From NCBI RefSeq assembly GCF_026409565.1, contig NZ_CP112881.1, positions 2,549,501 through 2,613,500 on the forward strand: a stretch of 64,000 nt of DNA, in the 5' to 3' direction. The position numbers and the translations under genes were made by a program. Below the pieces are notes generated by a model. That model was not told the origin of the DNA. It saw only the letters and a list, made by a program, of their open reading frames with translations, and did not search any database. Position 1 is the first letter of the stretch; every line of letters starts with the position of its first letter. Origin of the DNA: Sneathiella aquimaris (lineage in GTDB: Bacteria; Pseudomonadota; Alphaproteobacteria; Sneathiellales; Sneathiellaceae). This document shows, piece after piece, positions 1-4,660 of this stretch.

Positions 1-2
1 CC

Positions 3-923
3 GGACGTCCTGTAAAACTCGTCTGGACCCGTGAAAACGACATCCAGCACGACATGTATCGTCCTGCTGCAATGGCCGACTTCAAGGCAACACTGAACAA
101 TGGTGGAACCATTAATGGCTGGCATACCCGGTTGGCAAGCCCTTCTGTTGCACGCTCCTTTACCGAAAGGCTTCTACCTTGGGCCGGGGCGGATATGCCT
201 GACAACACAACAGCCGAAGGGGCAGCTGATATTGCCTATCAATTCCCGCATATGCTTGTCGAACATTTTCCGACCCAGATCCCCGTTCCCGTTGGCTTCT
301 GGCGAAGTGTTGGCCATTCCTACAATGGTTTTTTCACTGAGAGCTTTATGGACGAAATGGCCGTTGCTGCTAAACAGGATCCCATTGATTTTCGGTTATC
401 CCATCTTGGAAACCATCCCGATTATTCAGATGTCCTGAAAAAGCTGAAACAGGTCAGTGGATGGCAAAAACCCCTTGGAGAAAACCGGGGACGCGGCGTC
501 GCCCTTCATGAATCCTTCGGCACAATCGTCGGGCAGGTCGTTGAAATAACAATGCTTGACGATCAGACGATCAAGATTGACAAGGTTTATTGTGTTGTTG
601 ACTGCGGTGAAGTTGTTAATCCTGATACTGTCGCCGCTCAAATGGAAAGTGCTATAATATTTGGCCTGACAGCCGCTTTATTTGGCGAGATTACCCTTAA
701 AGATGGGCGCGTCGAGCAGAGTAACTTTCCAGATTACGAAATGATGCAGCTGGCTCATTGTCCGGATATTGAAGTTCATCTCGCGCCCTCTGGTCGTCCA
801 TTGGGGGGGATCGGAGAGCCGGGGACACCACCTATCGCGCCTGCCCTTACAAACGCAATTTTCAATGCATCGAAAACCAGAATACGGGAACTGCCGATCA
901 CTAAATCAGGTTTTTCTGTCTGA
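3..923 (+). CDS. Molybdenum hydroxylase large subunit, isoquinoline 1-oxidoreductase beta type (3' part only)
   Basis: This is the C-terminal ~306 residues of a xanthine dehydrogenase-family molybdopterin-binding subunit; the reading frame is open to the window edge, so the start lies upstream. The visible part begins with GRPVKLVWTRENDIQHD, a hallmark of the IorB-type branch. Near the C-terminus is GGIGEPGTPPIAPAL, which contains the active-site glutamate expected in this family. Such enzymes hydroxylate N-heterocycles or oxidise aldehydes with a Mo-molybdopterin cytosine dinucleotide cofactor, paired with a small 2Fe-2S subunit (IorA type) that would lie outside the window. Many members are Tat-exported, but the N-terminus is not visible here. 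The substrate cannot be told from the sequence. The gene converges on luxQ with a 25-bp gap. Confidence 0.88.
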   Translation, partial: GRPVKLVWTRENDIQHDMYRPAAMADFKATLNNGGTINGWHTRLASPSVARSFTERLLPWAGADMPDNTTAEGAADIAYQFPHMLVEHFPTQIPVPVGFWRSVGHSYNGFFTESFMDEMAVAAKQDPIDFRLSHLGNHPDYSDVLKKLKQVSGWQKPLGENRGRGVALHESFGTIVGQVVEITMLDDQTIKIDKVYCVVDCGEVVNPDTVAAQMESAIIFGLTAALFGEITLKDGRVEQSNFPDYEMMQLAHCPDIEVHLAPSGRPLGGIGEPGTPPIAPALTNAIFNASKTRIRELPITKSGFSV

Positions 924-931
924 GTATTAAA

Positions 932-970
932 CCTTCACGTCAAACGGCTTATCGCTTGTTGACGTGAAGG
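932..970 (-). terminator. 12-bp perfect inverted repeat spanning the luxQ stop codon
   Basis: Arms 932-943 (ccttcacgtcaa) and 959-970 (ttgacgtgaagg) pair perfectly around a 15-base loop that contains the luxQ stop codon (949-951). Read on the minus strand the right-hand arm is followed by TTTAAT, a weak U-tract, so it could be the luxPQ terminator. Because the arms include the last codons of luxQ, ribosomes would interfere with folding until release. Confidence 0.5.
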
Positions 971-3561
971 GCTTTATGCAATGCTTCTGACAACCTGATC
1001 TTGGTGAACGGCTTATATAATATCTCGATACCATCCGGCAGTTTCTCTTTAGATGAAATAGCATTTCCGGTAAAACCTGACATCAAGACAGCCGGTAGAT
1101 CAGGCCGGATTTCTTTTGCGGCTAAAATCAGCTCTAAACCATTTAATCCGTTCGGCAGGATTACGTCAGAGAGAAGAAGATCAACCGATTGGGTTTTCAA
1201 TATTTCGATGGCCGCACCACTATCAGAACATTCCAGATGATCATATCCAATAGAGCCTATCTGCTTTGAGACAAGGTTCAGTACATCAGGATTATCTTCC
1301 ACAATTAGTACCACCTCACCGTGACCTTCGTGCAAAAGCTGCTCTTTAGCATCTTTTTTGTTCTGTTTACCCATTTGAACACGCGGAAGATAAAGTTGGA
1401 TTGAGGTTCCTTTTCCAACTTCACTATAAACAGTAATGTGGCCGCCTGACTGTTTTACAAATCCAAAAACCATACTTAATCCAAGCCCACTTCCCTTCCC
1501 GACCTCTTTGGTGGTGAAGAAAGGCTCCAGGATTTTTTCCTTAATGTCTTCAGCAATCCCCTCACCTGTGTCACTGACGACGATACAGACATATTCACCC
1601 GCCTTAAGCTCCGGTATATTGTCAGTATATTCTTCATCTAAAGATGTTGTGAAGCATTCGATTAGCAATTCGCCGCCATTTGGCATCGCGTCCCGCGCAT
1701 TCACGGCAAGGTTCAAAAGAGCATTTTCGAGTTCGGCAGGATCAATCAGAACGTTGCAGTCATTCCTCAAATTTGTTTTCACGTGCACCAGCTCACCTAG
1801 TGCCCGCTCTAACAAACTGCGCATTTCAAGTATAACGGACCCGGCTTCGACGACGACTGGGTTCAATGTTTGTTGTCGCGAATAAGCCAGAAGCTGATGG
1901 GTCAGCAAGGCGCCGCGTTCGGCTCCTTTAATCGCATCCGCCAAATTCTTCGCAAATTCGCCCTCTAAAAGCTTGGTTTCCTCAATCAGTTCAAGATTAC
2001 CCAGAACAACAGACAATAAATTATTGAAATCATGAGCAACACCGCCCGTTAATTGTCCAACAATTTCAAGCTTTTGCGACTGCCGCAGCTGATCCTGAAT
2101 TTTATCTGCTTCCTTCTGAGCCTCTACTTCACTAGTGATATCTCTAGAAGTTCCGCGATAACCGATAAAGGTTCCGTCTTGATCGTATCTGGGTTTTCCA
2201 CTGGCTGACCAGTATTTAATACTTCCGTTTGGATCAATCCGGCGGAACACATAGTTTCGGAAGGGCATTTGCCTGGCCAAAGTCTGTCGATGATCATCCC
2301 AATCACTATACTCTTGATCAACACCCTGTATTTCCCAGCGTTTTTTCCCAACGATATTATTCAGATCCATATTCTGGCTGGAATTGGCCTCTCTGGACAC
2401 ATAGACATATCGGTTTTCCGCATCCGTTTCCCATACAGAATCCGACGACACAGATACGAAATCCTGAAACCGCTTTTCACTTTCTTGAAACGCGGTAATT
2501 ACATTTGCCAAATTCTGCCCGACGATATTAAAATCCTTAATTGGGGATTGCAGCAGTTGCGGTTTACTTTCCTGTCGTTCAGCCCGGCGTGCATAAACAA
2601 CAAGATCCCCGATTGGCTTCAAAAAAAGCTTTCTTGCCAACGTAGCGATCACAATCGATAATGCCAATATGACAACGACCGCGACCCCAACCGATATCAA
2701 GTAGAATTGATCAACACTTGCCTCGTCAGAAATCTCGTATCCGTGAAGAATATGAAATTGAGAGTCTGATATTTTCTCCGTCAGTACCTGCGATCCAAAA
2801 AGATAATGGACGTCCGGACCATGCTCAGTTAAATCGACACCGCTTTGCGTCAGGTGTCTTCCGATATCGTCAGGCAGTTCACCTGAATGCGTTAAGATGG
2901 CACCGCGAAACACAACCGCAGAAAAATCTGAACCCACCTGATTCCTTATGGATTGAATAAGTTCCTGATCACTATTTATAAAGAAGCCGCCGACCAAATG
3001 CCCGGCAACCCGTCCTGTAAGATTATCCAGAACTTCGCGTTTGAAATATACAAGAACGATCGGATCGGTGCCACTGGCCACTTGTGACACCCAGGCCCAT
3101 CTTCGTTCGTTCCCTCGCCTATTTTCAATTTTTGAAATTATTTCTTCTATCGGAAATAATTCATTATAAAATGACACTTGGACCTGATTGTCAGATGACA
3201 GTAACGCGAGAAATCCTAGATCTGTTTCTTTTTGCCCATAAAAGACACCGCGAAGATATGGCACAATGGCATTCTGATCGGCACGATCTCTGCTTCTTTG
3301 AAAGATCGCATCCTCAGCTGTTAAATTGACAATATTCTGGACACCCGTTAGTTGCGCATCGAAGACAAGGTCACTTACAACCTTCCCGAGATTTTTCTGA
3401 TATTCCCGTTTCTGGTCCAAAAGAATGAGAGAACTTTGATACGTTAAACCAAGAACCCCGAGCGTCAGGGCAAGCATAATCAGGAAAAGCCCCACCGCCA
3501 TTATAAAAGACAGCCGGTATTCCCGTTTTGGCATTTTTTTAGTTTGAGTATCTAAAGGCAC
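949..3561 (-). CDS. luxQ: LuxQ-like hybrid sensor histidine kinase/phosphatase
   Basis: An 870-residue inner-membrane hybrid kinase: TM1 about 17-47, periplasmic domain about 48-286, TM2 about 287-310, PAS domain about 361-480, dimerisation/phosphoacceptor domain with H510 in GGVAHDFNNLL, ATPase domain with N-box (NLAVNARDAMPNGG), G1 (DTGEGI) and G2 (GSGLGLS) motifs, and a receiver domain about 748-866 with D799 as phosphoacceptor. It overlaps luxP by 23 bp, so translation is likely coupled. In Vibrio, LuxQ binds apo/holo LuxP through its periplasmic domain and switches between kinase and phosphatase. The length (Vibrio LuxQ is about 859 residues), two-TM layout and luxP partner support the name. 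The kinase core differs: Vibrio LuxQ has an HEIRTP H-box, this one has the HDFNNLL H-box typical of CckA-like kinases. No LuxU or LuxO gene is in the window. Function as an AI-2 sensor is inferred mainly from the partner. Confidence 0.75.
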   Translation of the reverse strand: MPLDTQTKKMPKREYRLSFIMAVGLFLIMLALTLGVLGLTYQSSLILLDQKREYQKNLGKVVSDLVFDAQLTGVQNIVNLTAEDAIFQRSRDRADQNAIVPYLRGVFYGQKETDLGFLALLSSDNQVQVSFYNELFPIEEIISKIENRRGNERRWAWVSQVASGTDPIVLVYFKREVLDNLTGRVAGHLVGGFFINSDQELIQSIRNQVGSDFSAVVFRGAILTHSGELPDDIGRHLTQSGVDLTEHGPDVHYLFGSQVLTEKISDSQFHILHGYEISDEASVDQFYLISVGVAVVVILALSIVIATLARKLFLKPIGDLVVYARRAERQESKPQLLQSPIKDFNIVGQNLANVITAFQESEKRFQDFVSVSSDSVWETDAENRYVYVSREANSSQNMDLNNIVGKKRWEIQGVDQEYSDWDDHRQTLARQMPFRNYVFRRIDPNGSIKYWSASGKPRYDQDGTFIGYRGTSRDITSEVEAQKEADKIQDQLRQSQKLEIVGQLTGGVAHDFNNLLSVVLGNLELIEETKLLEGEFAKNLADAIKGAERGALLTHQLLAYSRQQTLNPVVVEAGSVILEMRSLLERALGELVHVKTNLRNDCNVLIDPAELENALLNLAVNARDAMPNGGELLIECFTTSLDEEYTDNIPELKAGEYVCIVVSDTGEGIAEDIKEKILEPFFTTKEVGKGSGLGLSMVFGFVKQSGGHITVYSEVGKGTSIQLYLPRVQMGKQNKKDAKEQLLHEGHGEVVLIVEDNPDVLNLVSKQIGSIGYDHLECSDSGAAIEILKTQSVDLLLSDVILPNGLNGLELILAAKEIRPDLPAVLMSGFTGNAISSKEKLPDGIEILYKPFTKIRLSEALHKALHVNKR

Positions 3562-4660
3562 GTTTTTTCAATTCCACAATCTGCTCTTTTGACATGCCTT
3601 TTTCAACAAGAATGATATCTCCTGAAAAAACAAGCGGGATCCTTTTATTCTTTCCAATTTGATCCAGATAGACAGCCTCTGCCATTGCGACACCATTATC
3701 ATCATTCATCCGCATGACCGTGAAATCCAGGTCACCTCGATTAATGGCCTCAAGCTCACTATCTCCCCCACCCCATCCATTGGTCATAACCTGACCAAGC
3801 TTGTTCCTCTCCTTCAACCCGTCAATTACCCCAAGGGCAATGTCTGTGGAACTACTGAAAATAAAATCGATTTCCGGATTATTATCCAAAATATCCAATG
3901 TTGCTCTATGTGCTTTCAATCGGTCAAAACCAACATAATATGAATCCGCAAGAACCATCCGGCTATGCTGCTGCATTTCCAACAGAAATGTTCCGCCCCT
4001 CATATCGTTCACATATCCGCGCGGCCCAAAAAGAATTGCGTAGTTTGCCTGAAAATTGGTTCTCCGCAAATATTCCTGCGCCAGAATTTCTGTTCCTGAC
4101 GCATGATCAAACCCAACATATTGAAACGGCTGTTGTTCGCCGAAAGATTTAAGCGGTGTTGTAATATTCTGTAAAATCAGTTTTGTCTTGTTTTGCGACA
4201 GGACGCTTCTGATCAGCTTTTTATGGCGTGATGCATTTAATGTAAAAACCAGATAATCGACATCGTTCGATAAGAAAGTCCCCAATTGCCGGGCCTGCTC
4301 TGCTATCGCCGTGTCTGGTGATGTGAATTGTGAGATAATTTCTACATTGGAGAACAATTCATCCAGTCGCGCCTTCATAGAAAGGACACTTCGGCGCCAA
4401 TAATCAGATGCTTGAAGGCCGGGATAAATAACACCAATTTTTATGGGGGTTGTAATTTTTTTCCCCCGATTGACTACACCCTGTCGAACCCGTTCAATAA
4501 AGGCAGCACTTTTCTCTTTCTCAGAGGGATAAAGCGTCTGATATTCTTCGACAGTCCAATAGTCCGCAAACCGGGTTTCTGCGGAGGTGTATTTAAAGAA
4601 AGAAAGACAAACTACCATGGCTAACACCATCGACAACGTGACTTTATTCAGTAAATACAT
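3539..4660 (-). CDS. luxP: LuxP-like periplasmic autoinducer-2 binding protein
   Basis: A 373-residue type I periplasmic binding protein with an N-terminal signal peptide (cleavage probably after TSA, residue 27). From memory of Vibrio harveyi LuxP, its ligand contacts are Q77, S79, W82, N159, R215, T266, W289 and R310; here the aligned residues are Q83, S85, W88 (in GLQASDYW), N165 (ILQNITTP), R221 (NDMRGGTF), T272 (SSTDIAL), W296 (NGWGGG) and R317 (VMRMNDD), with a constant offset of 6 then 7. The two arginines are those that hold the borate diester form of AI-2. The C-terminal KKRAFRYS also matches LuxP. First gene of a luxPQ operon; the preceding ~200 bp is AT-rich and must hold the promoter. 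A ribose/galactose-binding role is the main alternative but does not explain the full pocket match. Confidence 0.88.
   Translation of the reverse strand: MYLLNKVTLSMVLAMVVCLSFFKYTSAETRFADYWTVEEYQTLYPSEKEKSAAFIERVRQGVVNRGKKITTPIKIGVIYPGLQASDYWRRSVLSMKARLDELFSNVEIISQFTSPDTAIAEQARQLGTFLSNDVDYLVFTLNASRHKKLIRSVLSQNKTKLILQNITTPLKSFGEQQPFQYVGFDHASGTEILAQEYLRRTNFQANYAILFGPRGYVNDMRGGTFLLEMQQHSRMVLADSYYVGFDRLKAHRATLDILDNNPEIDFIFSSSTDIALGVIDGLKERNKLGQVMTNGWGGGDSELEAINRGDLDFTVMRMNDDNGVAMAEAVYLDQIGKNKRIPLVFSGDIILVEKGMSKEQIVELKKRAFRYSN

Follow-up and report, generated by a model that had tools for sequence, protein, structure and literature searches.

The luxP gene and its predicted AI-2 pocket

We analyzed a 64,000-nucleotide stretch of the Sneathiella aquimaris genome (the window), in which two genes on the reverse strand encode a predicted periplasmic binding protein and a hybrid histidine kinase (Table 1). 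A phmmer search of the PDB with the 373-residue binding protein returned Vibrio harveyi LuxP as the best match (E = 2e-89) and a sugar-binding protein as the runner-up (E = 1.5e-13), which places it with LuxP rather than with the ribose- and allose-binding proteins. The protein shares 43% sequence identity with LuxP from the V. harveyi genome (locus L095, 364 positions compared) and belongs, by domain search, to the sugar-binding superfamily. On these sequence grounds we assign the gene as a luxP orthologue.

Table 1. Features of the luxP/luxQ-like locus (window coordinates unless residues are given)
Feature	Position	Strand	Details and basis
luxP, periplasmic AI-2-binding protein (predicted)	3539..4660	-	373 aa; phmmer, contact residues, LuxP tree
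LuxP signal peptide, N-terminal	residues ~1-29		judged by eye
LuxP Q83, S85, W88 codons (V. harveyi Q77, S79, W82)	4397..4414	-	alignment
LuxP N165 codon (V. harveyi N159)	4166..4168	-	alignment
LuxP R221 codon (V. harveyi R215)	3998..4000	-	alignment
LuxP T272 codon (V. harveyi T266)	3845..3847	-	alignment
LuxP W296 codon (V. harveyi W289)	3773..3775	-	alignment
LuxP R317 codon (V. harveyi R310)	3710..3712	-	alignment
luxQ-like hybrid histidine kinase	949..3561	-	870 aa, GTG start, 23-nt overlap with luxP
LuxQ-type periplasmic domain, residues ~44-280	2722..3432	-	Pfam PF09308, 5.4e-7; AlphaFold fold match
PAS_4 domain, cytoplasmic	2125..2451	-	domain search
HisKA (H510 in HDFNN) and HATPase_c transmitter, CckA-like	1381..2058	-	domain and profile searches
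Receiver domain, D799 the likely phospho-acceptor	979..1311	-	domain search; sequence

Eight residues of V. harveyi LuxP that contact AI-2 in the published structure all have identical counterparts in the protein encoded in the window. As the original prediction had stated, they are offset by +6 (Q77, S79, W82, N159, R215, and T266) and then by +7 (W289 and R310). Three of the eight, N159, R215, and R310, are described as hydrogen-bonding the ligand (PMC6452917). The protein did not fall within the ribose/galactose-binding proteins, the outcome that the prediction had named against itself; it groups with LuxP and carries the full contact set. Averaged over 83 LuxPs, the proportion of residues matching the window protein is 0.997 in the pocket and 0.48 over all positions, and none of 200,000 random position sets equaled the conservation of the pocket, which is thus beyond chance (W289 lies inside the search pattern that gathered these sequences, and the result is the same when it is left out). 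The complete set of eight is present in 81 of the 83.

Matching contact residues fall short of proving the identity of a ligand. The sugar-binding ancestry of LuxP, the lack of LuxS in the organism, and the highly divergent LuxQ sensor domain (see below) would also suit a LuxP/LuxQ homologue pair that senses some other small sugar-like or boron-containing molecule. We consider this unlikely, since the eight contact residues are kept family-wide while the remainder of the protein drifts, and since a 2025 survey of AI-2 receptors reports AI-2 binding by three LuxPs from Proteobacteria and Deferribacterota, distant ones among them (PMC12268683). We infer that the ligand is AI-2, most likely in its borated form.

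A LuxQ-type sensor joined to a CckA-like transmitter

The overlap of luxP with a two-transmembrane hybrid kinase of LuxQ length, noted in the original prediction, is confirmed by the reading frames. The two transmembrane helices flank a periplasmic domain that scores above the cut-off of the LuxQ-periplasm family. We modeled this part with AlphaFold (mean pLDDT of 85, from an alignment containing one Vibrio LuxQ row) and found that its six best Foldseek matches are all LuxQ structures. The five best matches in VIA-align are likewise LuxQ (3c30, 3c38, 2hje, 2hj9, and 1zhh_B; Z-scores 17.9-19.4, the highest for V. cholerae LuxQ), compared with a Z-score of 14.0 for the best protein other than LuxQ. 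Despite the fold match, the domain shares only ∼12% sequence identity with the LuxQ structures, and identity inside the genus is ∼25-38%. Because the domain is so variable even among close relatives, we propose rather than assert a contact between LuxP and LuxQ. The NCBIfam equivalog for Vibrio LuxQ (NF041947) gives 138.6 bits against a cut-off of 1200, its best-matching segment being the generic kinase region, and we therefore call the kinase LuxQ-like and not Vibrio LuxQ. LuxP orthology, together with a LuxQ periplasmic domain recognized by both Pfam and fold, bears out the prediction of a luxP-luxQ pair in an alphaproteobacterium.

What that prediction had overlooked is that the kinase, judged by its profile and tree affinities, is not LuxQ-like in its cytoplasmic half. 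Another protein encoded in the genome matches residues 356-866 at 43% identity. When we searched with a profile built from the Sneathiella LuxQ transmitter, eleven paralogues from its own genome scored 242-298 bits, other LuxQs at most 196 bits, and V. harveyi LuxQ 43 bits. In the transmitter tree, the Sneathiella LuxQ falls among its own-genome paralogues, and the other LuxQs are separate (branch support 99/96). The AU test did not formally reject a topology constrained to unite all LuxQ transmitters (p-values of 0.06 and 0.07), and we therefore base the case for a transmitter swap on the bit scores and on branch support. The chimeric kinase is most simply explained if the output module was exchanged in the Sneathiella lineage. 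In one member of the genus (L015:10541-12766, same as L026), LuxQ stops after the ATPase domain and has no receiver.

Distribution of LuxP and outputs of its partner proteins

LuxP relatives occur at no fewer than 236 genome loci, the best 80 of which come from Alphaproteobacteria, desulfo-bacteria, Arcobacter, Oceanospirillales, Aeromonadales, and Vibrionales; the alphaproteobacterial carriers among these 80 include Sneathiella, Kiloniella, Terasakiella, Stappia, Labrenzia/Roseibium, and Nisaea. Our search of viral contigs returned no LuxP relative. The suggestion that the pair is exceptional outside Vibrio did not survive this count, which agrees with the LuxP homologues already described from outside Vibrio in a 2008 paper (PMC2561040) and in the 2025 survey (PMC12268683). 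LuxP itself is thus ordinary and its family broader than Vibrio; the kinase joined to it is the real variant.

Within the genus, luxP is followed directly by the LuxQ-like kinase gene at nine of ten loci, the tenth lying at a contig end. Where the contig is long enough, the pair has a molybdenum-hydroxylase-type gene on one side and a gene for a CoA-transferase on the other. Seven relatives lacking luxPQ (L143-L149) have nearly the same flanks with another short gene in between; the one that we checked (L144:6881-7549) encodes a methyladenine glycosylase family protein. This arrangement is compatible with gain and with loss of luxPQ alike. The luxP gene of S. glossodoripedis (L020:9917-10954, also L038) has an apparent frame break near its 3' end, and another genome of the genus (G017; L011/L021) carries a remnant of luxP that contains two TAG stops; decay or sequencing error are possible causes in both.

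The occurrence of luxP is patchy. In an evenly drawn sample of the class it is present in 6 of 387 alphaproteobacterial genomes, and in the genus in 11 of 25 (ten clear copies and one fragment), a pattern that a recent horizontal transfer of luxPQ from Vibrio could produce. We regard such a transfer as highly improbable, because a branch of the LuxP tree (support 96/86) sets the Alphaproteobacteria on one side and the Vibrionales form a separate clade (100/100), because identity to Vibrio LuxP is just 43%, and because the carriers in the genus share the same locus neighbors. The tree is unrooted, as two outgroup sequences were left out.

We scanned the genes downstream of luxP that encode at least 300 residues and found that all 49 proteins encoded directly after it, selected for that position, contain the LuxQ-periplasm domain (PF09308). 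Their outputs differ: 36 have a histidine kinase, 18 a receiver, 8 a GGDEF, 8 an EAL, 3 an Hpt, and 1 a SpoIIE domain. Kiloniella and Nisaea have kinases lacking a receiver, and in a Desulfococcaceae bacterium (L034:7227-9464) the LuxQ sensor is joined to a SpoIIE-type phosphatase. Labrenzia, Stappia, and Oceanospirillum (L041, L045, and L070) encode partners in which the LuxQ periplasmic domain is followed by PAS, GGDEF, and EAL domains, and these are predicted to be direct AI-2 to c-di-GMP receptors. In 39 kinase-type pairs, LuxP distances correlate with LuxQ-sensor distances at r = 0.87 and with transmitter distances at r = 0.75, kinship being ignored. These data are best explained if LuxP and the LuxQ periplasmic domain form a sensing cassette whose two parts stay together as its output is exchanged between lineages. 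It is about an even bet that this AI-2-sensing cassette is old and portable, and that many luxS-free marine bacteria keep it as a dedicated detector of neighbors whose output has been swapped repeatedly, for host-type hybrid kinases, for direct c-di-GMP turnover by GGDEF-EAL, or for a SpoIIE phosphatase.

The luxS gene was found in 18 of 59 luxP genomes (13 gammaproteobacteria, 4 Arcobacter-like, and 1 Desulfobacterium) and in none of the 29 alphaproteobacterial ones; several of these genomes are incomplete metagenome assemblies, and any single absence is weak. Alphaproteobacterial genomes in general carry luxS in 2 of 289 cases. Since the gene is rare throughout the class, its absence alone is no argument for evolved eavesdropping, and against this background our data document receivers that lack the LuxS synthase rather than a link between carrying luxP and losing luxS.

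A predicted one-way AI-2 circuit and its known relatives

The source genome is complete (3.94 Mb). The original prediction had no luxS, luxU, or luxO in view, and this holds genome-wide: our searches returned no luxS, and family models and domain searches identified no LuxU or LuxO orthologue. A SAH hydrolase is encoded. With this gene content, the organism should be incapable of AI-2 synthesis by LuxS; AI-2-like molecules may arise by a non-LuxS route. Our search for LsrB led to one candidate, the genome's top-scoring Peripla_BP_4 protein, for which no NCBIfam model gives a match at E = 1e-20. Its gene adjoins those for an ABC transporter, a probable methylthioribose kinase, MtnA, and a class II aldolase (L133, C1:2373001-2381000), and we therefore did not assign it as LsrB. 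This sugar ABC transporter operon is likely devoted to methylthioribose uptake and salvage.

The kinase, a hybrid of LuxQ length with a receiver, might signal in Vibrio fashion through a LuxU/LuxO-like relay, and the genome does contain five sigma-54 regulators that resemble LuxO and, among six Hpt matches, a single short free-standing protein of 126 residues. For all five regulators, however, LuxO is a poorer fit than NtrC, NtrX, FlbD, or another family. Three of them exceed the cut-offs for NtrC, NtrX, and FlbD, and none scores above 351 bits with the LuxO model, whose cut-off is 800. The lone Hpt protein gives no match to the LuxU model, which does recognize V. harveyi LuxU, and the transmitter is CckA-like, so we hold a Vibrio-type relay to be very unlikely. 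The genome also encodes one ChpT-type phosphotransferase.

We favor, with a probability of roughly 0.78, a LuxP-LuxQ type AI-2 sensor in a marine alphaproteobacterium that lacks AI-2 synthesis by LuxS and that reads the AI-2 of its neighbors through a host network with a swapped output. Exported LuxP would bind AI-2 in the conserved pocket. Judging from the fold and from the conservation of the gene pair, LuxP would sit on the periplasmic domain of LuxQ, which is two-lobed and of the Cache type, and ligand binding would shift the receptor arrangement. The signal would then pass via the PAS domain to the CckA-like transmitter, which is typical of the host lineage and not of Vibrio. The domains present point to a phosphoryl group being passed by H510 to the attached receiver, at D799, and then, as a guess, to a phosphotransferase of the host, perhaps the lone Hpt protein or ChpT, instead of LuxU/LuxO. 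The cell would thereby read AI-2 made by others and answer through its own network. The organism probably listens to other species, and this proposed eavesdropping may, but need not, be an adaptation.

AI-2 is termed an interspecies signal, yet its marine receivers are poorly known. With LuxPQ-type receptors in bacteria that lack the synthase, one-way listening can be tested directly, and an exchange of outputs behind one conserved sensor reveals how listening is wired, in some lineages to c-di-GMP.

In their 2008 paper, Rezzonico and Duffy (PMC2561040) describe LuxP homologues beside other sensor proteins in luxS-negative bacteria, already propose that such carriers read the AI-2 of others, and regard complete LuxPQ systems as confined to the Vibrionales. 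The 2025 survey counts 267 LuxPs, mainly from Proteobacteria and marine (PMC12268683), and a 2026 review still gives LuxPQ as a Vibrio system (PMC13220807). One open library yielded no report on LuxP in Sneathiella and, in the text that it makes available, none on output-module exchange behind LuxP. LuxP outside Vibrio is thus already known; the swapping of its output modules seems to have been little noticed.

Compared with the LuxP-LuxQ systems of V. harveyi and V. cholerae, the window pair has the same LuxP contact set, adjacent genes, and LuxQ periplasmic fold, and its kinase is likewise a hybrid of similar length with a receiver. It differs in its divergent sensor sequence, in a PAS domain and transmitter that are CckA-like rather than Vibrio-like, and in a genome in which LuxU, LuxO, and LuxS were not found. 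LsrB of Sinorhizobium meliloti, which belongs to a different receptor family, works with ABC import and without a kinase. S. meliloti is, like our organism, a luxS-less alphaproteobacterium, and it responds to the AI-2 of others (Pereira 2008, as cited in PMC11796354). The LuxPs of the 2025 survey resemble ours in lying beyond Vibrio; its accessible sections treat LuxP as a sensor domain only and are silent on LuxQ partners and their output modules (PMC12268683). In the luxS-negative Neptuniibacter, Marinomonas, and Desulfuromonas, a LuxP homologue stands beside a PAS-containing sensor as in the window, but these bacteria belong to other classes and use different output proteins (PMC2561040).
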